Below are positions 5,373-34,000 of a stretch of 35,460 bases of DNA, piece by piece (the first letter of the stretch is position 1; each line of letters opens with the position of its first letter). The stretch covers positions 17,354-52,813 of the forward strand of contig JACPFL010000276.1 of assembly GCA_016183025.1 (NCBI GenBank), read 5' to 3'. A model generated the notes under the pieces. It was not told where the DNA came from. It did not search any database and saw nothing but the letters and a program-made list of their open reading frames with translations. A program made the translations under genes and the position numbers. Source of the stretch: Deltaproteobacteria bacterium. Its GTDB lineage: Bacteria; Desulfobacterota; JACPFL01.

Positions 5373-6896
5373 TCAGGGATCACTCGCCGGACGTTGGTTG
5401 GTGAGCCCATAGCTCTTGAGTCGGTACTGCAGGGTGCGGAGGGCCATCCCCAGGCGCCTGGCGGCCAGGCGCCGGTTCCCTCCGGTCTCCTCGAGCGCCC
5501 GCAGGATGGCTGCCTTCTCGATCTCCTCCATGGTACCGGGCTGGGGCGTCGGTGCTGCCCCGGGGGAGCGGACTCCGAGCGCGAGGTTCTCCGGCTGGAT
5601 CTCCTCCCCCCGGGCGACGATCAGGGTGCGCTCAATTGCATGCTCCAGCTCGCGGACGTTCCCGGGCCAGGCGTACTCGAGCAGGGACTGGACCGTGGCC
5701 CTGGAGAGGCGGAGACCCTCGCGGTGATGGCGGGATGCCACCCGGGCCAGGAAGGTCGTGGCCAGCGGCAGGATATCCTCGCGACGCTCTCTGAGCGGCG
5801 GGAGGTGGATGGGGAACACCTTGAGGCGATAGTAGAGGTCCTCCCGGAACCCGCGCTCCAGCACCGCCTGCTCGAGGTCCCGGTTGGTGGCGGCCACGAG
5901 ACGGACGTCCACGCGGATCGTCCGCGTCCCGCCCACCCGTTCGAACTGGCGCTCCTGCAGTACGCGCAGGAGTCGCGCCTGGAGCGCCGGGCTCATGTCC
6001 CCCACCTCGTCGAGAAACAGCGTGCCCCCATCGGCTAGCTCGAAGCGCCCGCGTCGCTGGGCCACGGCCCCGGTGAAGGCGCCCCGCTCATGTCCGAACA
6101 GCTCGCTCTCCAGCAGGTTCTCCGGGATCGCCACGCAGCTCACCGGGATGAACGGCCGATCAGCCCGAGGGCTCAGCCCGTGGATGGCCCGGGCGATGAC
6201 CCCCTTGCCGGTCCCGCTCTGTCCGGTCATGAGCACGGTGGCCGTGGTCGGGGCCACCAGGCGGACCAGCTCCAGGACCTCCTGCATCGCTCGGCTGACC
6301 GCGATGATCGGCTCCGGCAGGCCGGGGATCGAGACCGTGGTCTCCCCTGCCTCGAGGCGGCGGCCGGCACGGCCGCTGGCGGGTGGCTGGGCCCGGGCCC
6401 AGATCCCGCGCGACCGGGAGTTCCCTTCCCTGACGGCTGCAGCGGCCGGTGGGGTCCCGGTCTGTCCCGGTGCCGCCGGGGAGTGCGGCCCCCCGGGGAG
6501 GTCCGACCGCGCGCTCGCCTGGGCTCGTTCTGTCAGGGCCTTGCGCACGAGGAGCCGCAGCTCCTCGGGGCTCCCGAGCGGCTTCAGCAGGTAGTCGTAC
6601 GCGCCCCGGCGCATCGCCTCCACGGCCGAGGGGATGGTGCCGTAGGCCGTCAGCAGGATCACCGTGGTCTCGGGGTGCAGGCTCTTCACCTGTTCCAGCA
6701 GGTCGAGCCCGGAGAGACCGGGCATCCTGAGGTCGGTGATGATCATGTCAGCCGGCGCCTCCCGGAGCGCTTCGAGCGCAGCCCCGCCGTCCCTTGCCTC
6801 CCGGACCTCGTAGCCGGCATCGCGGAGCACCCGGGAGAGGAGCAGGCGCATCGAGGCCTCATCGTCCACTACCAGAATCCGGATGCGCTCAGACAC
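5373..6896 (-). CDS. NtrC-family sigma-54-dependent response regulator (enhancer-binding protein)
   Basis: The product is 507 residues with three domains. The receiver (1-125) has acidic residues D11 and D12, phospho-acceptor D55 in DLRMPG, and Lys105. A Pro/Ala/Gly-rich linker (126-188) follows. The AAA+ domain (about 193-430) has Walker A GQSGTGKG (225-232), the sigma-54 contact loop GAFTGA (272-277) and Walker B LFLDEVGD (293-300). A Fis-type helix-turn-helix (about 455-497) ends the protein. It would use ATP to remodel RpoN polymerase after phosphorylation by the kinase encoded just upstream. The GTG start overlaps the kinase stop by 8 bp. It is the only activator of this class in the window, and its own operon carries a sigma-54 promoter, so autoregulation and control of the dyad-bearing operons are plausible. 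Confidence 0.95.
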   Translation of the reverse strand: MSERIRILVVDDEASMRLLLSRVLRDAGYEVREARDGGAALEALREAPADMIITDLRMPGLSGLDLLEQVKSLHPETTVILLTAYGTIPSAVEAMRRGAYDYLLKPLGSPEELRLLVRKALTERAQASARSDLPGGPHSPAAPGQTGTPPAAAAVREGNSRSRGIWARAQPPASGRAGRRLEAGETTVSIPGLPEPIIAVSRAMQEVLELVRLVAPTTATVLMTGQSGTGKGVIARAIHGLSPRADRPFIPVSCVAIPENLLESELFGHERGAFTGAVAQRRGRFELADGGTLFLDEVGDMSPALQARLLRVLQERQFERVGGTRTIRVDVRLVAATNRDLEQAVLERGFREDLYYRLKVFPIHLPPLRERREDILPLATTFLARVASRHHREGLRLSRATVQSLLEYAWPGNVRELEHAIERTLIVARGEEIQPENLALGVRSPGAAPTPQPGTMEEIEKAAILRALEETGGNRRLAARRLGMALRTLQYRLKSYGLTNQRPASDP

Positions 6897-8223
6897 CCGC
6901 CTCCTCCTGAGCCGGAAGCGTCACGGCGAACCTGGTCCCCTGCCCTGGCACGCTCTGGACCGTGATCGTGCCGCCGTGCTGCTCCACGATCTGCCGCGCG
7001 ATGGCCAACCCCAGCCCGGTCCCTCGCGGCCGGCGGGTGAAGAAGGGCGAGAAGATCTGCGAGAGGTCGTCGGGAGAGATCCCCTCGCCCCGGTCCTTGA
7101 TGGTCACCACGACCGTGCCGGGTCGGCCTGCCCGAAGCACCTGCACGGCCAGCACTCCCCCGCGGGGCATGGCCTGCAGGGCGTTCACCATCAGGTTGGT
7201 GAAGACTTGCCGGAGTCGCTCGGCATCGCCTGGGATCGGGGGAAGGTCCCGGGCCCCTTCCCGGTGGATCAGGACCCCCACCGCCTGGGCCTCCGGCTGG
7301 AAGCGCGCCACCAGTTCGTCCAACAGCGCCTCCAGCTTGACCTCCCCCCGCTGGATCGGGCGAGGGCGGGCGTACTCGAGCAGGTCAGCCGCGAGCTGCT
7401 CCAGACGCCGCGCCTCCCGGACCATGGCCTCCGTGACCTCCGCGCTACCCGCCTCCCCGCCCTGCCGTTCATGCAGGTACTGGGCAAGCCCTTTCAGGGC
7501 CGCCAGCGGGTTGCGGATCTCGTGCGCCAGGACTGCAGCCATCTCCCCCAGCACGGCCAGGCGCTCCCGGCGGGCATGGGCCGCCTGCAGGGCGACGTAG
7601 CGGCGCAGGGTGAGCAGCTCGTACGCCGCCAGCACGCCCACCAGGAGCAGGAGCAGACCCACAATGAGGGCGTGGACCTCGGCCTCCCGGAGCACCCAGC
7701 GGGCGGCGCTCGTGTGGAGGGCCACCCGCAGGAAGCGGAGGTGGGTGGCCGCCGCATCCGGCAACCGCAGGGGGAGGGTCAGCTCGTAGACCTCCTCGCC
7801 GGTGCCGAGCAGCACCAGCTCGGTGATCGGCATGTGCGTCTGGCTGGCCCGCCGCACGCGCTCGTCCACCTGCCGCCGTCCCACCAGCTCGGGGTTGGAA
7901 TGGGCCAGGACCAGGCCGTCCCCTTCCAGGACCGCCATGTAGGCGAGGTCGCGGTCCTGCTGCGTGGCGACCAGGGTCTGGAGCGCTCGGGCATCCCGGG
8001 CGCCGAGGGCCGACAGGGAGGCTGCCAGCGTGCGGGCGCGCGTGAGGGCCTCGCGCTGCAGTCGATCTTCCACTACCCGGGAGGCGGTGCGGTAGGTCAA
8101 CACGGTGCTCACCGCGAGCGCCAGCCCTGCCAGCGCGACCAGCGCCACGACGCCCCGCACCGGGAATGCCCTCCGCCCGCTCTCCTCCGCCAGCCGATCC
8201 CGGCTGCGGGGTTCCGTTGACAC
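6889..8223 (-). CDS. Membrane sensor histidine kinase, partner of the sigma-54 activator
   Basis: The product is 444 residues. A first membrane helix (about 24-43) and a second (about 184-204) enclose a ~140-residue periplasmic sensor domain. The second helix is followed directly by the DHp domain with HEIRNP (His234 as phospho-acceptor); no clear HAMP domain is seen. The ATPase domain has the N-box NLMVNALQ (343-350), the G1 box DRGEGIS (377-383) and the G2 box GTGLGLAIAR (401-410). This is the NtrB/AtoS/ZraS-like layout that pairs with NtrC-type regulators. I chose GTG 8223; the frame is open further upstream but that part overlaps the fumarase gene. It lies 44 bp after fumC and overlaps the regulator by 8 bp. 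The signal sensed cannot be read from the sequence. Confidence 0.92.
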   Translation of the reverse strand: MSTEPRSRDRLAEESGRRAFPVRGVVALVALAGLALAVSTVLTYRTASRVVEDRLQREALTRARTLAASLSALGARDARALQTLVATQQDRDLAYMAVLEGDGLVLAHSNPELVGRRQVDERVRRASQTHMPITELVLLGTGEEVYELTLPLRLPDAAATHLRFLRVALHTSAARWVLREAEVHALIVGLLLLLVGVLAAYELLTLRRYVALQAAHARRERLAVLGEMAAVLAHEIRNPLAALKGLAQYLHERQGGEAGSAEVTEAMVREARRLEQLAADLLEYARPRPIQRGEVKLEALLDELVARFQPEAQAVGVLIHREGARDLPPIPGDAERLRQVFTNLMVNALQAMPRGGVLAVQVLRAGRPGTVVVTIKDRGEGISPDDLSQIFSPFFTRRPRGTGLGLAIARQIVEQHGGTITVQSVPGQGTRFAVTLPAQEEAGV

Positions 8224-8267
8224 GTCGTGCTCCGCGCTCGCCTGGCCGCCAGAGTGCCGGGGCCGGG

Positions 8268-9668
8268 TCAGAACCGGCCCCCCTGCGCCAGCTTCTCCAG
8301 GTCCAGCACTTCGTCCAGCGTCTCTGCGGTCAGCAGGCCGGCCTCCAGGATCGCCCGGCGGATGGGCTTGTCCTCCTCCAGGCACTTCTTGAAGATCTTG
8401 GCCGCGTTGTCGTACCCGATGGCCGGGGCCAAGGCCGTCACCAGCGCGGCGCTCCGCTCGGCGTACTCCCGGCACCGTTTGGCGTCGGCGGTGATCCCCC
8501 GGACGCACTTGTCGGCCAGGGCCTGCGCCGCGCGCCCCTCGATCTCGATGGACTCCAGGAGGTCGTAGGCGATGACCGGCATCATGACGTTCAGGTCGAG
8601 GTTGCCGTTGAGCCCGGCGATCGCGATGGCCGCATCGTTCCCGATGACCTGGGCCGCCACCATGTTCACCGCCTCCGGGATCACCGGGTTCACCTTCCCG
8701 GGCATGATGCTCGAGCCGGGCTGCGTGGCCGGCAGCTCGATCTCGGCCAGCCCGGTGCGCGGCCCCGACGTCAACAGGCGCAGGTCGTTGGCCATCTTCA
8801 TCAGACCGACGGCAATGGTCTTCAGCGTCCCTGAGGTCTGCACGCAGGCGTCCTTGTTCTGCATCGCCTCGAACAGGTTGGGCGCCCGGCGGAAGCGCAG
8901 CCCCGTCAAGGCGTTCAGCTCCTTGACCACCCCATCGGCGAACCCGGGGGCGGCGTTGAGCCCGGTCCCGAGCGCCGTCCCCCCGATCGGGAGCTCCGCC
9001 AGCTGCGATTTGGCCTGTTCCACGCGCTCGATCCCGTGCCGGATCACGCTCGCGTACCCCGAGAACTCCTGGCCGAGGGTGATGGGCACCGCGTCCTGGA
9101 GATGCGTGCGCCCTGACTTGACCACCCGGGCGAACTCCTGCGCCTTTCCCTCGAGCGCTTCGGCCAGCGCCCTGAGCCCGGGGAGCAGCGTGCGCTCGAT
9201 CGCCTCCATCGCGGCCACATGGATGGCCGTCGGGAAGACGTCGTTGGTCGACTGCCCCATGTTGACGTGGTCATTGGGGTGCACGGTCTTGTCGCCCCGC
9301 TTCCCCCCCAGCAGCTCGATGGCGCGGTTGCCGATGACCTCGTTGGCGTTCATGTTCGTGGAGGTGCCGGAGCCGGTCTGGAAGATGTCCACCACGAACT
9401 CGGTGTCCAGCCGCCCCTCGGCCACCTCCAGGGCCGCCTTCTCGATGCCCTCTGCCAGGCGATGATCCAGGAGTCCCAGGGCCCGGTTCGTCCGGGCGCA
9501 GGCCGCCTTGATCAGCCCCAGGGCCTTGATGAACCCCCGCTGGAAGCGCAGCCCGGAGATGGGGAAGTTCTCCACGGCCCGCGCGGTCTGCGCCGCGTAG
9601 TAGGCGTTGGCCGGCACCTGCATCTCCCCCATGCTGTCGCGCTCGATCCGATACCCCTTTTCCGCCAT
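8268..9668 (-). CDS. fumC: Class II fumarate hydratase or aspartate ammonia-lyase
   Basis: The product is 466 residues, the normal length for the fumarase/aspartase superfamily, which makes fumarate from malate or aspartate by anti-elimination. Visible hallmarks are NDHVNMGQSTNDVFPTAIH, SGRTHLQDAVP and the signature loop GSSIMPGKVN with its mobile catalytic Ser. After the loop the sequence reads PVIPEAVN, which is closer to aspartases than to E. coli FumC (PTQCEA), while the C-terminal IGYDNAAKI resembles fumarases, so specificity is open. ATG 9668 follows GGGGAGGGG. It heads an operon with the two-component pair, behind a sigma-54 promoter at 9769-9784. Confidence 0.85.
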   Translation of the reverse strand: MAEKGYRIERDSMGEMQVPANAYYAAQTARAVENFPISGLRFQRGFIKALGLIKAACARTNRALGLLDHRLAEGIEKAALEVAEGRLDTEFVVDIFQTGSGTSTNMNANEVIGNRAIELLGGKRGDKTVHPNDHVNMGQSTNDVFPTAIHVAAMEAIERTLLPGLRALAEALEGKAQEFARVVKSGRTHLQDAVPITLGQEFSGYASVIRHGIERVEQAKSQLAELPIGGTALGTGLNAAPGFADGVVKELNALTGLRFRRAPNLFEAMQNKDACVQTSGTLKTIAVGLMKMANDLRLLTSGPRTGLAEIELPATQPGSSIMPGKVNPVIPEAVNMVAAQVIGNDAAIAIAGLNGNLDLNVMMPVIAYDLLESIEIEGRAAQALADKCVRGITADAKRCREYAERSAALVTALAPAIGYDNAAKIFKKCLEEDKPIRRAILEAGLLTAETLDEVLDLEKLAQGGRF

Positions 9669-10119: not shown

Positions 10120-10135
10120 AGGAACAGTTTTTGCT
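10120..10135 (+). promoter_or_regulatory. sigma-54-type promoter of the formate dehydrogenase operon
   Basis: The site is AGGAACAGTTTTTGCT. The -12 half (TTTTTGCT) is excellent and GG-N10-GC spacing is exact; the -24 half matches GG and AC only. It lies 60 bp before the first gene at 10195. Confidence 0.5.
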
Positions 10136-10194
10136 GACCTTCAACGTGTCCCCATACGCAAGGCGCAGGCCCGGCGCGCTTGGAGGAAGACGGG

Positions 10195-10521
10195 ATGGAT
10201 GGGATGTGGCTCTACGGGTGGAGCGTGGTGCTCAGCGTTTTCCTGTGGGTCGTCTGGATCCTGGCTGTTGGCCTCTGGGTGCTCATTCTGGGCAGCCTGA
10301 TCGTGACCCAGGTGCGGACAGCCGCTGAGCCGCCGGTGGCGTACGAGACCGGCGTGTGCCCGGTCCACGGAGTGCCGGTGGAGGTGACCTTCCGACGCCG
10401 GTCGCGGTTCAGCCGCCGCGTGACGGAGGTCCTCCGCTGCTCGGCTCAATCCGAGCCCGAGCGCCTCACCTGCAATCAGGCCTGTGTCGACAAGGGGCTG
10501 GGGGTCCAGGCGGCAGCGTAG
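10195..10521 (+). CDS. Small single-span membrane protein with four C-terminal cysteines
   Basis: The product is 108 residues. One long hydrophobic helix (about 5-36, WSVVLSVFLWVVWILAVGLW and onward) is followed by a ~70-residue soluble part with CPVHG (near 54), a single RC (near 81) and CNQAC (near 93-97). Four Cys and one His in this layout could hold zinc, an Fe-S cluster or a redox disulfide. I do not recognise the family. ATG 10195 is preceded by GGAGG at ideal spacing; ATG 10204 is a weaker alternative. It is the first gene of the formate dehydrogenase operon, 64 bp before fdhA, so a role in maturation, anchoring or electron transfer of that enzyme is the natural guess but is unproven. 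Confidence 0.75.
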   Translation: MDGMWLYGWSVVLSVFLWVVWILAVGLWVLILGSLIVTQVRTAAEPPVAYETGVCPVHGVPVEVTFRRRSRFSRRVTEVLRCSAQSEPERLTCNQACVDKGLGVQAAA

Positions 10522-10585: not shown

Positions 10586-13500
10586 ATGAGCATCGATCGG
10601 AGGGACTTCCTGAAGGCGGCGGGCGCCGCGGCCGGCAGCCTGCTGCTCCCCGTCGGCGCGGAGGCGGCGGCCCAGGCCGCCCGTTTCCCACTCCACAAGC
10701 AAGTCATGGAAGGGCGGTCCATCTGCCCCTATTGCTCTGTCGGATGCGGCGTCATCATCGCCACGGACCAGGCGGGGCACGTGGTCAACACCGAGGGGGA
10801 TCCGGATCACCCCATCAACCGTGGGGCCCTGGACCCCAAGTCGGTGGCGATCACCCAGCTCTGCAACAGCCCCCTTCGGCTGAAGACGGTGCGGTACCGG
10901 GCGCCCGGGAGCGACCAGTGGGAGGACAAGCCGTGGGACTGGGCCCTCGGCGAGATCGCCAAGCGGATCAAGGCGACCCGCGATGCCACCTTCATCGCGA
11001 AGAACGCCCAAGGGGTCGCGGTCAACCGGACTGAAGCGATCGCCTGGCTGGGAGGCGCCGCCAACAACAACGAGGACTGCTACCTGGGCGCCAAGCTGAT
11101 GCGGGCCCTGGGGGTCGTCTACCTGGAGCACCAGGCCCGGATCTGACACTCCTCCACGGTGGCCGGTCTGGGCCCCACATTCGGTCGCGGCGCGATGACG
11201 AACCACTGGATCGACCTGAAGAACGCCGACGTCGTCCTCGTCATCGGCGGCAACCCGGCAGAGAACCACCCCGCCTCGATGCTCTGGGTCAACCGGGCCC
11301 GGGAGGAGCGAAAGGCCCGCCTCGTGGTGGTGGACCCCCGTCTGACCCGCACGGGCGCCCGGGCAGACCTCTATGCCCCCATCCGGAGCGGCACCGACAT
11401 CGTCTTCCTGGGGGGCCTCATCAACCACGCCATCCAGCGCCGCCTCTACAACGAGGAGTACGTCAAGGCGTACACCAACGCGCTGACGCTCGTTCATCCG
11501 CAGTACCGCGGGCCTGCCGAGCTGAATGGCGTCTTCTCCGGCTTCGACCCGAAGAAAAGGAGCTACAACCCTGAGACCTGGCAGTACCAGACGCGCACGG
11601 AGACTGTCACCGGCAAGCCGGTTACCCTCCCCAGGATGGCGGCAAGCCTCGACGACCCCCAGTGCGTCTTCGCCCACCTGAAGCGGCACTACGCCCGCTA
11701 TACCCCGGAGATGGTGGAACGGGTCTGCGGCACGCCAAAGGATCTCTTCCTCAAGGTCGCCGAGACCTTCTGCGCCACCGGGGAGCCCGGCAAAGCGGGG
11801 ACCATTCTCTACGCCATGGGCCAGACCCAGCACACGGTCGGCACGCAGAATGTCCGGGCCATGGCGATCCTCCAGCTCCTCCTGGGGAACGTCGGAATTC
11901 CGGGTGGCGGCGTCAACGCCCTCCGGGGCGAGTCCAACGTCCAGGGAAGCACCGACATGGCCCTGCTCTTCCACGACCTCCCGGGCTACCTCGGCTGCCC
12001 GACAGAGGCCCAGGCCGACTTCGCCAAGTTCACGGCCAAATGGGACACGACGAGCTTCTGGGCCAACGGGCCGAAGTTCTTCGTGAACCTGATGAAGGCG
12101 TGGTGGGGGGAGGCGGCCACGAAGGAGAATGACTGGGCGTACCACTACCTCCCCAAGGTCGGCGGGAACTACTCCTGGATTCCCCTCTTCGAGGCGCTCT
12201 ACACCGGGAAGATCAAGGGGCTGCTCGCCATGGGCCAGAATCCGGCCGTCTGTGGCCCCAACGCCCGGTTCGAGCGCAAGGCCCTGGGGAACCTCGACTG
12301 GCTGGTGGTGATGGAGCTGTTCGAGACCGAGACGTCCGCCTTCTGGCACGCGCCGGGCGTGGACCCCAAGACGATCAAGACCGAGGTCTTCCTGCTTCCT
12401 GCGGCCGATGCCATGCAGAAGGCCGGCAGCATCGTCACCAGCGGCCGGCTGATCCAGTGGCGGGACCGGGTGGCCGCCCCGCCCGGGGAGGCGAGAGAGG
12501 ACATCTGGATCCTGGACCGGATCTGCCGGACGCTCAAGGCCCTGTACAAGGGGAGCACGGCGGCCAAGGACCGACCGATCCTGGACCTGGTCTGGGATTA
12601 CGGCGATCCCCCCGAGGCCGGCCGCGTGGCCCGGGAGATCAATGGCTTCGCCCTGGGGGACGTGAAGGATAAGGACGGCAAGGTGCTGGTGGAGCCGGGC
12701 AAGACGATCCCCGGCCTGGCCGTGCTCGCGGCTGCGGCCGACCCGGGCACCATCGCCTGTGGCAACTGGCTCTATGCGGGCTACTTCCATCCGGCGGACG
12801 ACGGCACCGGCGTCGCCATGCCAGCAGCGAAGCGACGAGGGCTGAAGGACCCGGGCGGCCGCGGCATCTACCCCTACTGGGGGTGGGCGTGGCCGGCCAA
12901 CCGCCGGATCCTGTACAACCGCTGCTCGGCCCGGCCGGACGGCCGCCCCTGGAGCGAGGTGATGAGGCTCATCTGGTGGGACGCCGCGCAGAAGGAATGG
13001 GCGGGCTACGATGTCCCCGATTTCCCGCCCACCAAGGCGCCGGAGACCAGGGCCGATCCGGCTGGCACCGGGCTCGCCGCGCAGAGCGGGACCGACGCCT
13101 TCCTCATGAAGGCCGATGGCAAGGGGTGGCTCTTCTCCCCGAAGGGGCTCACGGACGGCCCCCTGCCAGAGCACTACGAGCCCCTGGAGTCCCCCATCCG
13201 TAACCCCCTCTCCCGCGTCCAGGTCAACCCTGTAGTCAGGGTCTGGGAGACCGATAAGGACAAGGAGGTGGGGGACCGGGTCGGGGCGGCGGAGCAATTC
13301 CCCATCATCTGCACCACGTACCGGCTCACGGAGCACTTTCAGGCCGGGGCCATGTCGCGCACCCTGCCGTGGCTGGCCGAGACCCAGCCGGAGATGTTCG
13401 TGGAGATCAGCAAGGAGCTGGCGGCCGAGAAGCGGATCAAGAACGGCGACCGCGTGATCGTCACCTCGGCCCGGGGCCGGATTCGCGCCGTGGCCATGGT

Positions 13501-13693
13501 CACGGGCCGCTTCAAGCCCTTCCGCGTGGACGGCAAGCTCGTGCACCACATCGGGATGCCGTGGCACTACGGCTGGGTCGGGCTTGCCACCGGCGACAGC
13601 GCCAACGACCTGACCCCGCACGTGGGCGACGCCAACACCATGATCCCGGAGTACAAGGCGTTCCTGGTGGACCTCCGGAAGGCGGAGGTGTGA
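10586..13693 (+). CDS. fdnG: Formate dehydrogenase-N type catalytic (alpha) subunit, selenocysteine-containing
   Basis: This is a molybdenum/tungsten bis-MGD enzyme that oxidises formate to CO2, 1035 residues when the in-frame TGA at 11144-11146 is read as Sec187. The family context around it is unmistakable: ARI-U-H before TVAGLGPTFGRGAMTNHW, as in E. coli FdnG (Sec196). A twin-arginine signal (DRRDFLK, residues 4-10, then a hydrophobic stretch) sends it to the periplasm. The [4Fe-4S] cysteines are 47, 50, 54 and 93. ATG 10586 follows GGAGGGGTGAGG. The stop is one base before fdhB. A stop-respecting gene caller would split this gene into two pieces and miss the Tat signal. Confidence 0.96.
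11144..11182 (+). promoter_or_regulatory. UGA selenocysteine codon with bacterial SECIS hairpin
   Basis: Counting the U of UGA as 1, the key features of the E. coli fdhF SECIS fall in place: a bulge-position U at 17 (11160), a GGCC/GGCC apical stem (11161-11164 with 11171-11174) and the loop GGUCUG with G23-U24 (11166-11167), the SelB contact. This decides that the TGA is recoded rather than a disabling stop. Confidence 0.92.
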
Positions 13694-13694
13694 G

Positions 13695-14489
13695 ATGGCC
13701 AAGGTCGCGATGCTCGTCGACACGACCCTCTGCACGGGCTGCCGAGGGTGCCAGGTGGCCTGCAAGCAGTGGTGGGACCTGTCCGCCGAGGTCACAGGGA
13801 ACCGGGGGAGCTATGAAAATCCGCCGGACCTCTCCCACAGCACCTGGACCCGCGTGACCTTCCACGAGGTGGAGGATGGCCGGGGCCTGCAGTGGTATCA
13901 CCTGGCGTGGGGGTGCGTGCACTGCACGGAGGCCGCCTGTGTGGACGTTTGTCCCACCGCGGCCCTGAAGTACCATCCGCTCGGGTTCGTCTCGCTGGAG
14001 CGGGACCTCTGCAACGGGTGCGGCTACTGCCTGACCGCCTGCCCGTTCGACATCCCCCAGCTGGAGAGCAACGTCCTGACCGGGCGGGGGAAGGCCACCA
14101 AGTGCAACCTCTGCCAGGACCGGGTGACCGAGGGCCTCATCCCGGCCTGCGTCAAGACCTGCCCGCCCGGGGCCATCCGCTTCGGGGACCGGCAGCAGAT
14201 GGTGACCCTGGGGCGGACCCGGGCGGCAGCCCTGCAGGAGCAGGGCTTCGCCGAGGCCAGCCTGTACGGCCCGGAGTTGCTGGGCGGGCTGGGACGGATG
14301 TTCGTGCTGGCGGCGCGCCCGGCGAAATACGGCCTGCCCGAGCGCCCCACCTACCCCCTCGCGGTGACCCTCTGGCAACGGCTCTTCCAGCCCCTGGGGC
14401 AGCTCGGGGTCCTCGCCACCGTCTTCGGCCTGGCCGCCAACTGGGTGGTGACGCGGCGGCTTCGAGGGAAGAAGAAGGAGGAGGTGTGA
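13695..14489 (+). CDS. fdnH: Formate dehydrogenase iron-sulfur (beta) subunit
   Basis: The product is 264 residues and transfers electrons from the alpha subunit to the membrane cytochrome b through four [4Fe-4S] clusters. Cysteine groups are CTGCRGCQVAC (13-23), CVHCTEAACVDVCP, CNGCGYCLTACP and CNLCQDRV...CVKTCP. A C-terminal hydrophobic helix (about 226-245) and a basic tail (RRLRGKKKEEV) anchor it in the membrane as in FdnH. It starts one base after fdhA and ends one base before the gamma subunit, so the three are translationally coupled. Confidence 0.95.
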   Translation: MAKVAMLVDTTLCTGCRGCQVACKQWWDLSAEVTGNRGSYENPPDLSHSTWTRVTFHEVEDGRGLQWYHLAWGCVHCTEAACVDVCPTAALKYHPLGFVSLERDLCNGCGYCLTACPFDIPQLESNVLTGRGKATKCNLCQDRVTEGLIPACVKTCPPGAIRFGDRQQMVTLGRTRAAALQEQGFAEASLYGPELLGGLGRMFVLAARPAKYGLPERPTYPLAVTLWQRLFQPLGQLGVLATVFGLAANWVVTRRLRGKKKEEV

Positions 14490-14490
14490 G

Positions 14491-15165
14491 GTGAACGGAC
14501 GAGCGATCTCCCGCTTCACGGCCGGCGAGCGGCTCTTTCACTGGGTGTACTTCGTGGCGTTCCTCACGCTCGCTACCACCGGCGCCTTCCTCTATCTCCC
14601 CTGGTTCTCCTTCGCCATCGGCGAGTCGGGCGAAACGAGCCGGCTCCTCCACCGCCTCTTCGCCCTGCTGCTCCTCGCCGTGCCGATCCTGACCCTGATC
14701 GTCTCCCCGAAGGAGTTCCGCGCAGACCTTCGGGAAGGGCTCACGTGGCGGGCTGAGGACCGGCGGGCGCTCCGGGTGCTGCTGACGCGCTACTACTGGA
14801 CAGGCGATCCGGCGGGCCTGCCCCCGCAAGGGAAGTTCACGGCCGGGCAGAAGCTGAACATCGGGCTACAGATCCTGGCCTTCGCCGTCATGGCCGTGAC
14901 CGGGCTCCTGCTGTGGTTCGGTCGAGGACTCCTGCCTGTGGGACTCCTCCGGTGGAGCCTGATCCTGCACGGCGGGGCGGCCGTCGCGGCAACCTGCTTC
15001 GTCCTCGTCCACATCTACATGGTGACCCTCCTGCCCATGACCAACCAGGCCATCGCCTCCATGTTTCTGGGCACAGTCTCGGAGGAACATGCCCTGACGC
15101 ACCATCCGAAGTGGTACGAGGCCCTGGTGCGGCGGCGGATGAGCCGGGCGGAGCGGAGGGGATGA
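14491..15165 (+). CDS. fdnI: Formate dehydrogenase cytochrome b (gamma) subunit
   Basis: The product is 224 residues with four predicted membrane helices and is the diheme cytochrome b that passes electrons from the beta subunit to quinone. Candidate heme ligands lie in FHWVYF (His17 or so), LLHRLF, ILHGGAA and LVHIYM. The GTG start follows GGAGG, which is inside the end of fdhB. Its presence makes this a respiratory enzyme that feeds the quinone pool rather than a soluble NAD- or hydrogenase-linked one. Confidence 0.93.
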   Translation: MNGRAISRFTAGERLFHWVYFVAFLTLATTGAFLYLPWFSFAIGESGETSRLLHRLFALLLLAVPILTLIVSPKEFRADLREGLTWRAEDRRALRVLLTRYYWTGDPAGLPPQGKFTAGQKLNIGLQILAFAVMAVTGLLLWFGRGLLPVGLLRWSLILHGGAAVAATCFVLVHIYMVTLLPMTNQAIASMFLGTVSEEHALTHHPKWYEALVRRRMSRAERRG

Positions 15166-16016
15166 TGGGGCAGGACGCCGAGGTCCCGCTCCGGCTGCGG
15201 GAAGAGCGAGAGCAGAGGGCTGATCTGGCCCGGACCCTGGATCTGCACCTCGCCCTGCTGGCGGCCAGGGCGGAGGTGGCCGTTCGGGTGCCGGCTGACT
15301 GGCCCGAGCATGCTTGGTCCCGGCTCCAGCAAGGTGAGCCGGCCCTGTGCCTCGACGAGCTCGAGCTGGACTGGGAGGCGGTCGTCCGGCTGGCCAGAAC
15401 GGTCTGCCACATTCTGGCGCGCCAGGAGCCAGCGCGCTCTCCTGCCCTCGCCCGTATCGCCTCCCGATTCGATGAGGCCGCGCTCAGTCCCAAAGGCGTG
15501 CAAGCCCTGGTCGTCCGGTACCTGGCAGACCACGACGGGGGCGGACTCCCGGAGCCAGGCGTGGACCCGGCGCTCTTCGGCTTCGTGCTGAATCAGGCGC
15601 TTCACCCCTTTCTCCAGGCGTATGCGGCCGTCGCGGCGCCGTTGCTCGAACAGGAGCGCTGGCTCCGGGGACGGTGCCCCGTGTGCGGCGGCCATCCTGA
15701 CTTCGCCGCCCTGGAGGGTGAGGTCGGCGAGCGCCGGCTGCTCTGTGCGCGTTGCGACAGCGAATGGGCCTACCGGCGACTCGGGTGCCCCTTTTGTGGC
15801 AACGAGGACCCCGGGGGCCTGGGCTACTTCCCCACCGGAGACGGCGCCTACCGCCTCTACGTCTGCGAGCAGTGCAAGGGGTACCTGAAGACGGTTGACC
15901 TCAGGGAGACCTGGCGCAGGCGGTCCCTGCCCGTCGAGCGGATCCTGACGGTGGGGATGGATCTGGCTGCGGCGGAGCAGGGATATCGCAGGGCCACGGG
16001 ATCCCGCCCGGATTAG
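15165..16016 (+). CDS. fdhE: Formate dehydrogenase accessory protein FdhE
   Basis: FdhE is a cytoplasmic rubredoxin-like maturation factor needed for activity of Tat-exported formate dehydrogenases. The product is 283 residues. The C-terminal half has four CxxC pairs (CPVCGGHP, CARC, CPFCGNED, CEQCKGY) that bind metal in the E. coli protein; the N-terminal half is helical and poorly conserved. Two adjacent ATGs (15162 and 15165) are possible; 15165 has the better distance from GGAGG. Both overlap the gamma stop, so it is the last gene of the coupled operon. Confidence 0.92.
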   Translation: MGQDAEVPLRLREEREQRADLARTLDLHLALLAARAEVAVRVPADWPEHAWSRLQQGEPALCLDELELDWEAVVRLARTVCHILARQEPARSPALARIASRFDEAALSPKGVQALVVRYLADHDGGGLPEPGVDPALFGFVLNQALHPFLQAYAAVAAPLLEQERWLRGRCPVCGGHPDFAALEGEVGERRLLCARCDSEWAYRRLGCPFCGNEDPGGLGYFPTGDGAYRLYVCEQCKGYLKTVDLRETWRRRSLPVERILTVGMDLAAAEQGYRRATGSRPD

Positions 16017-33976: not shown

Positions 33977-34000
33977 CGCCATCCAGGTACCAATATTGCA
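33977..34000. promoter_or_regulatory. Overlapping sigma-54-like sites between CopD-like and GNAT genes
   Basis: Two weak candidates overlap in opposite directions: TGGTACCTGGATGGCG on the minus strand (33992-33977) pointing to the CopD-like gene, and AGGTACCAATATTGCA on the plus strand (33985-34000) pointing to the acetyltransferase. Both have GG-N10-GC, but each matches only one half well. Confidence 0.35.

Follow-up and report, generated by a model that had tools for sequence, protein, structure and literature searches.

In the known formate dehydrogenase-N (FDH-N) complex, the subunits FdnG and FdnH are periplasmic. A cysteine-rich cytoplasmic helper of such enzymes has a precedent in FdhE, described as an iron-binding rubredoxin which is required by periplasmic formate dehydrogenases and likely proofreads their export (PMC10609526). 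The locus described here lies in a window of 35,460 nucleotides (the whole stretch of DNA that was analysed) from a deltaproteobacterial genome, and its formate dehydrogenase operon already encodes an FdhE besides the small protein under study, P0001. The following features were recognised:

10120..10135, + strand: sigma-54-like promoter candidate, AGGAACAGTTTTTGCT (GG-N10-GC; element GGAACAGTTTTTGCT at 10121-10135), about 60 bases before the P0001 ATG
10182..10186, + strand: ribosome-binding site GGAGG of P0001, 8 bases upstream of the ATG (from sequence)
10195..10521, + strand: P0001 coding sequence, a membrane-anchored four-cysteine protein of 108 aa (open reading frame, base composition, held-out family profile at E 1.3e-11)
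10201..10326, + strand: predicted transmembrane helix of P0001, residues 3-44 (hydropathy, single-sequence AlphaFold2)
10342..10491, + strand: four-cysteine domain of P0001, residues 50-99 (family alignments A1 and A2, low-confidence model)
10586..13693, + strand: fdnG, FDH-N alpha subunit with Tat signal and selenocysteine (in-frame TGA at 11144-11146)
13695..14489, + strand: fdnH, beta subunit with four iron-sulphur clusters and a C-terminal membrane stretch
14491..15165, + strand: fdnI, gamma subunit of the cytochrome b561 type
15162..16016, + strand: divergent fdhE-like accessory gene (47 bits against a cut-off of 188)

The gene order is thus P0001, fdnG, fdnH, fdnI and fdhE, with 64 bases between the end of P0001 and the start of fdnG, and the score of the alpha subunit against TIGR01553 (1194 bits, cut-off 814) identified the operon as FDH-N type. 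The in-frame TGA of fdnG is codon 187 and stands in the conserved selenocysteine context ARI-U-HSST; in the Rokubacteria relatives L039/L040, FdnG is split at the equivalent position. The initial annotation had placed P0001 as the first gene behind the operon promoter: it does lead the operon, while the promoter itself was an assumption, given that no sigma-70-like site was found and only the sigma-54-like candidate. The latter can be taken as suggestive only, because its pattern, GGNACN5TTGCW (two matches in the window against 0.28 expected), was picked after the region had been read. The second match, GGTACCAATATTGCA, is located at 33986-34000 (+). A sigma-54-activator response regulator and a histidine kinase are encoded nearby at 5373-8508 (-), where they adjoin fumarase and are transcribed away from the formate dehydrogenase operon.

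P0001 is a real gene, judging from its GC content per codon position (0.68/0.49/0.87, compared to 0.64/0.48/0.92 in fdnG, and fdnG-like in that frame only) and from the GGAGG site before its ATG. The product contains a single very hydrophobic stretch (mean hydropathy 2.73) and exactly four cysteines, all located after the helix: C55 (in CPVHG), C82 (in RCSA), C93 and C97 (both in CNQAC), with the spacing C-x26-C-x10-C-x3-C. This agrees with the initial description of one membrane helix followed by four cysteines including CPVHG and CNQAC, and the protein was also rightly called unrecognised, with no match to P0001 in Pfam, NCBIfam or PDB. A scan of the whole window revealed no second open reading frame of this kind. 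The literature titles and abstracts searched (most subscription journals being outside their coverage) contained no prior description either. The P0001 family is previously undescribed and unnamed, and it is missing from the curated libraries searched.

Relatives were sought in 395 genomes of the same phylum and in 95 genomes of the Rokubacteria phylum. The former set yielded no convincing relative besides the window itself, and a single-sequence search of the genome contigs with P0001 gave no match. The BLAST-level matches in the own phylum and in formate dehydrogenase-bearing genomes turned out to be chance matches once read, while a degenerate DNA pattern (CPxHG...CS...CxxxC) applied to the 395 genomes gave scattered matches, among which a cursory reading recognised no relative. 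A search of a Chloroflexota sample also returned no relative, a result of low weight as it was run without a positive control. Several full-length matches, the best at E 3e-5, were obtained in the phylum of the Rokubacteria genome G401 (locus L037). In the resulting alignment A1 the residues C55, V62, F66, V79, C82, C93 and C97 were invariant and all present in P0001, and in alignment A2 (a set of 32) C55, V79, C82, C93 and C97 remained invariant, the signature of the cysteine domain being C-P...V..C-S...C-x3-C. A functional core formed by CPVHG was rejected, because the family does not conserve H58 and G59. A profile built without P0001 retrieved it at E 1.3e-11, and at E 1.4e-9 with the soluble part alone, while the best of 2000 shuffles reached E 0.014. 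Members were detected by the family profile in 22 of the 95 Rokubacteria-phylum genomes, with up to four per genome. By sequence, P0001 is thereby shown to be a divergent member of a bacterial family of small four-cysteine proteins, with the four cysteines at the conserved spacing, V62, F66 and V79, and a significant score to the profile lacking it. Its branch is very long (2.34 changes per column), which makes its exact position in the tree unsure.

The single-sequence AlphaFold2 model of P0001 (mean pLDDT 72, pTM 0.40, with pLDDT of 93-98 over residues 11-40) consists of a helix (3-44), three strands (50-57, 60-67 and 79-82) and a second helix (87-99) bearing C93 and C97. A Foldseek search with this model against PDB returned nothing below E 3.9, which is a weak test of the fold because the model is poor. 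The model fits a small cysteine-bound metal site without proving it. On the basis of the invariance of the four cysteines across the family, and on that basis only, we infer that P0001 is probably metal-binding and that these residues most likely hold a single metal ion, zinc or iron.

An excess of lysine and arginine after the helix was present in 36 of the 39 anchored members, P0001 and sister members included, with the reverse in one and equal charge in two. P0001 has a single N-terminal helix with positive charge C-terminal to it, its own bias being slight (0 versus 1 charge). Eight members had no helix by the criterion of this test, and in some members the four-cysteine domain was fused to a universal stress protein (Usp) domain, with the Usp part either first (L205:845-1567) or last (L326:3368-4132, L329:7789-8550). 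Usp domains are cytoplasmic. The charge bias, the helix-less members and the Usp fusions together make a cytoplasmic location of the cysteine domain, with the N-terminus of the helix outside and its C-terminus inside, a well supported prediction. The N-terminal segment of the L236 member, for which Pfam gave no match, resembles a winged helix-turn-helix in our reading.

The 80 closest relatives of the window FdnG are 47-65% identical to it. Neither motif nor profile found a family member in the DNA fetched around these loci, 68 of which included at least 1 kb upstream of the alpha gene, indicating that formate dehydrogenase has no general need of P0001. This bears out the initial view that P0001 is not a standard part of FdnGHI, as no structural subunit of this kind is encoded with FDH-N in those loci. 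It speaks against a dedicated formate dehydrogenase partner, and so does the variety of gene neighbourhoods in which the family occurs: the Rokubacteria members were found, by our own reading of the neighbouring sequences, next to universal stress proteins, response regulators, CBS proteins, APS kinase, cytochromes, NrfD-type clusters and unrelated metabolism. Homologues were thus scattered rather than always adjoining formate dehydrogenase genes, largely the outcome that the initial annotation had named as counting against its proposal, and the link of P0001 to this enzyme is weak. Pfam tallies of 111 neighbour clusters compared to 109 control genes showed no strong enrichment. In a locus-level test with 59 control windows of 8 kb, where related loci are counted as independent and several queries were drawn from the tested loci, molybdoenzyme or chaperone genes were present near 6 of 46 main-family members compared to 1 of 59 controls (p 0.027), dropping to 4/46 versus 1/59 (p 0.11) with the window formate dehydrogenase proteins as sole queries; the molybdoenzyme enrichment of the main family is therefore not firm.

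A sister subfamily with the motif CPETG...VDA...CSLWPxR..CxQxCL, whose member L247_8 is recognised by the family profile at E 6.6e-13, was present in 26 of the 95 Rokubacteria-phylum genomes. Molybdoenzyme or chaperone genes were located within 4 kb of 10 of the 31 sister members compared to 1 of 59 controls (p 6e-5), and with the window formate dehydrogenase proteins as sole queries the count within 4 kb was 7 of 31 (p 0.002), distances of 3 and 6 kb giving p 0.014 and 0.05. This enrichment shifts with the distance chosen and comes largely from a single operon type that related genomes have kept, uncorrected for kinship. In four loci (L311, L315, L316 and L318) the sister gene separates the beta subunit gene from that of the NarJ/TorD-type chaperone within a type II DMSO-reductase/NarG-like operon, and in two others (L305 and L321) it comes after the chaperone. 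In the Rokubacteria genome G403 (L247/L248, contig C15) it closes a series of genes on one strand, FdnG-FdnH-NrfD-KOR-HdrA-HdrBC-EtfA-EtfB, and in G516, with the end portion visible, it ends an HdrA-HdrBC-EtfA-EtfB run. A plasmid search with a sister protein as query gave no match.

Sister members were also found in two own-phylum genomes, where they adjoin an FmdE-like gene; the two genes are convergent (L250 6200-7351, L251 472-1758) and the sister protein is extended at its C-terminus by a segment containing additional CxxC motifs. One more sister copy is encoded outside the window in the same genome as P0001 (G000, contig C308, 2720-3043; L249), with an Rrf2-type regulator and a protein of about 258 aa without Pfam match as neighbours. 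NarJ/TorD-type chaperones and sister genes repeatedly have as a neighbour a protein of about 260-360 aa that matches nothing in Pfam (WDPRFVEEAVLRA...; L316:8764-9846, L305:6851-7777, L249:479-1255). Another protein, of about 90-118 aa, has its gene between those of the alpha and beta subunits in the NarG-like operon (L316:5681-6034, the product having no Pfam match), with equivalents in L305, L311 and L318.

The initial suggestion of a new electron-transfer or structural subunit specific for formate dehydrogenase agrees with P0001 being first in the operon, membrane-anchored and cysteine-rich, but we regard it as very improbable. FdnG and FdnH being periplasmic, the cysteine domain placed in the cytoplasm by the charge pattern would face the opposite side of the membrane from these Tat-exported subunits, which makes electron transfer with them unlikely; besides, P0001 has no CxxC iron-sulphur motif and the other formate dehydrogenase loci compared have no relative. 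P0001 may also be a mobile, fast-evolving small gene which happened to be inserted ahead of fdnG and is co-transcribed without any role for the enzyme. Its absence from the 80 FdnG loci and the rest of the 395 phylum genomes, the scattered neighbours of its relatives and its very long branch would fit such an origin, but the good ribosome site, the gap of so few bases to fdnG, the cysteines kept despite the divergence and the recurrence of sister genes within molybdoenzyme operons argue against it, and we hold this explanation to be unlikely.

A further explanation is a redox, metal or stress sensor or adaptor, in which the four-cysteine domain would sense oxidants or metals and act via Usp or response regulators, so that beside formate dehydrogenase it would report the respiratory state and take no part in enzyme assembly. 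This is in line with the Usp-Cys4 fusions in both orders, the recurrence of response-regulator, CBS and APS-kinase neighbours and the presence of a Usp gene within 4 kb of 10 of the 46 main-family members compared to 2 of 59 controls (p 0.004), a difference obtained with Usp queries taken from the tested loci themselves and with related loci that are not independent. Beside P0001 in the window, on the other hand, no Usp gene was identified, and overall we consider this explanation somewhat unlikely.

Our preferred reading, held tentatively and at a little less than an even chance, is a membrane-docked metal-thiolate accessory module of an anaerobic respiratory enzyme, or a redox/metal reporter at such an enzyme. 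P0001 would be the first product of the formate dehydrogenase operon and would dock through its N-terminal helix on the inner membrane face, with the cysteine domain in the cytoplasm and its four cysteines binding one zinc or iron ion; it would then help in the assembly or quality control of the enzyme ahead of Tat export or, alternatively, report the redox or metal state at the inner membrane face. The accessory function, which we infer, is favoured at this locus because P0001 belongs to an FDH-N operon and sister genes adjoin NarJ/TorD-type chaperones, while the Usp association and fusions favour a redox/metal-responsive adaptor. As the sister subfamily is embedded in NarGHJ-like operons and in formate dehydrogenase/Hdr/Etf runs, P0001 may have an assembly or accessory role. 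The broader proposal, that these proteins form a new class of membrane-docked four-cysteine maturation factors for Tat-exported molybdenum/tungsten respiratory enzymes (FDH-N and NarGH-type), distinct from FdhD, FdhE and NarJ/TorD and with one branch coupling the domain to universal stress proteins, is rather doubtful. If the accessory reading is true, the assembly of exported molybdoenzymes would gain a membrane-docked metal-binding helper beside the soluble chaperones, in lineages with a divergent FdhE, and the Usp fusions would connect the inner side of the respiratory membrane with stress signalling. Because the family is missing from the curated libraries, dozens of genes in uncultured bacteria could share one name and one testable role.

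Compared to known systems, the proposed P0001 module resembles FdhE (TIGR01562), a cytoplasmic, cysteine-rich, metal-binding accessory protein encoded with periplasmic formate dehydrogenase and thought to act before Tat export (PMC10609526). However, FdhE is soluble, about 300 aa long and has iron-binding CX2C motifs, whereas the much smaller P0001 is membrane-anchored, has no CX2C and matched no NCBIfam or Pfam profile. The NarJ/TorD maturation chaperones are likewise small and encoded within molybdoenzyme operons, where the P0001 sister genes adjoin them, but they are all-helical soluble proteins (Nitrate_red_del) with neither a sequence relation nor a common cysteine site, and P0001 gave no match to the Nitrate_red_del profile. 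Zinc ribbons and rubredoxins share with P0001 the four cysteines and the predicted short strands; P0001 differs from them in its cysteine spacing, with CxxxC on a predicted helix instead of paired CxxC knuckles, and PDB gave neither a sequence nor a fold match, the fold part being weak with such a poor model. Finally, while P0001 itself has no Usp domain, the four-cysteine domain of its type is carried in some of its relatives by Usp (PF00582) fusion proteins.
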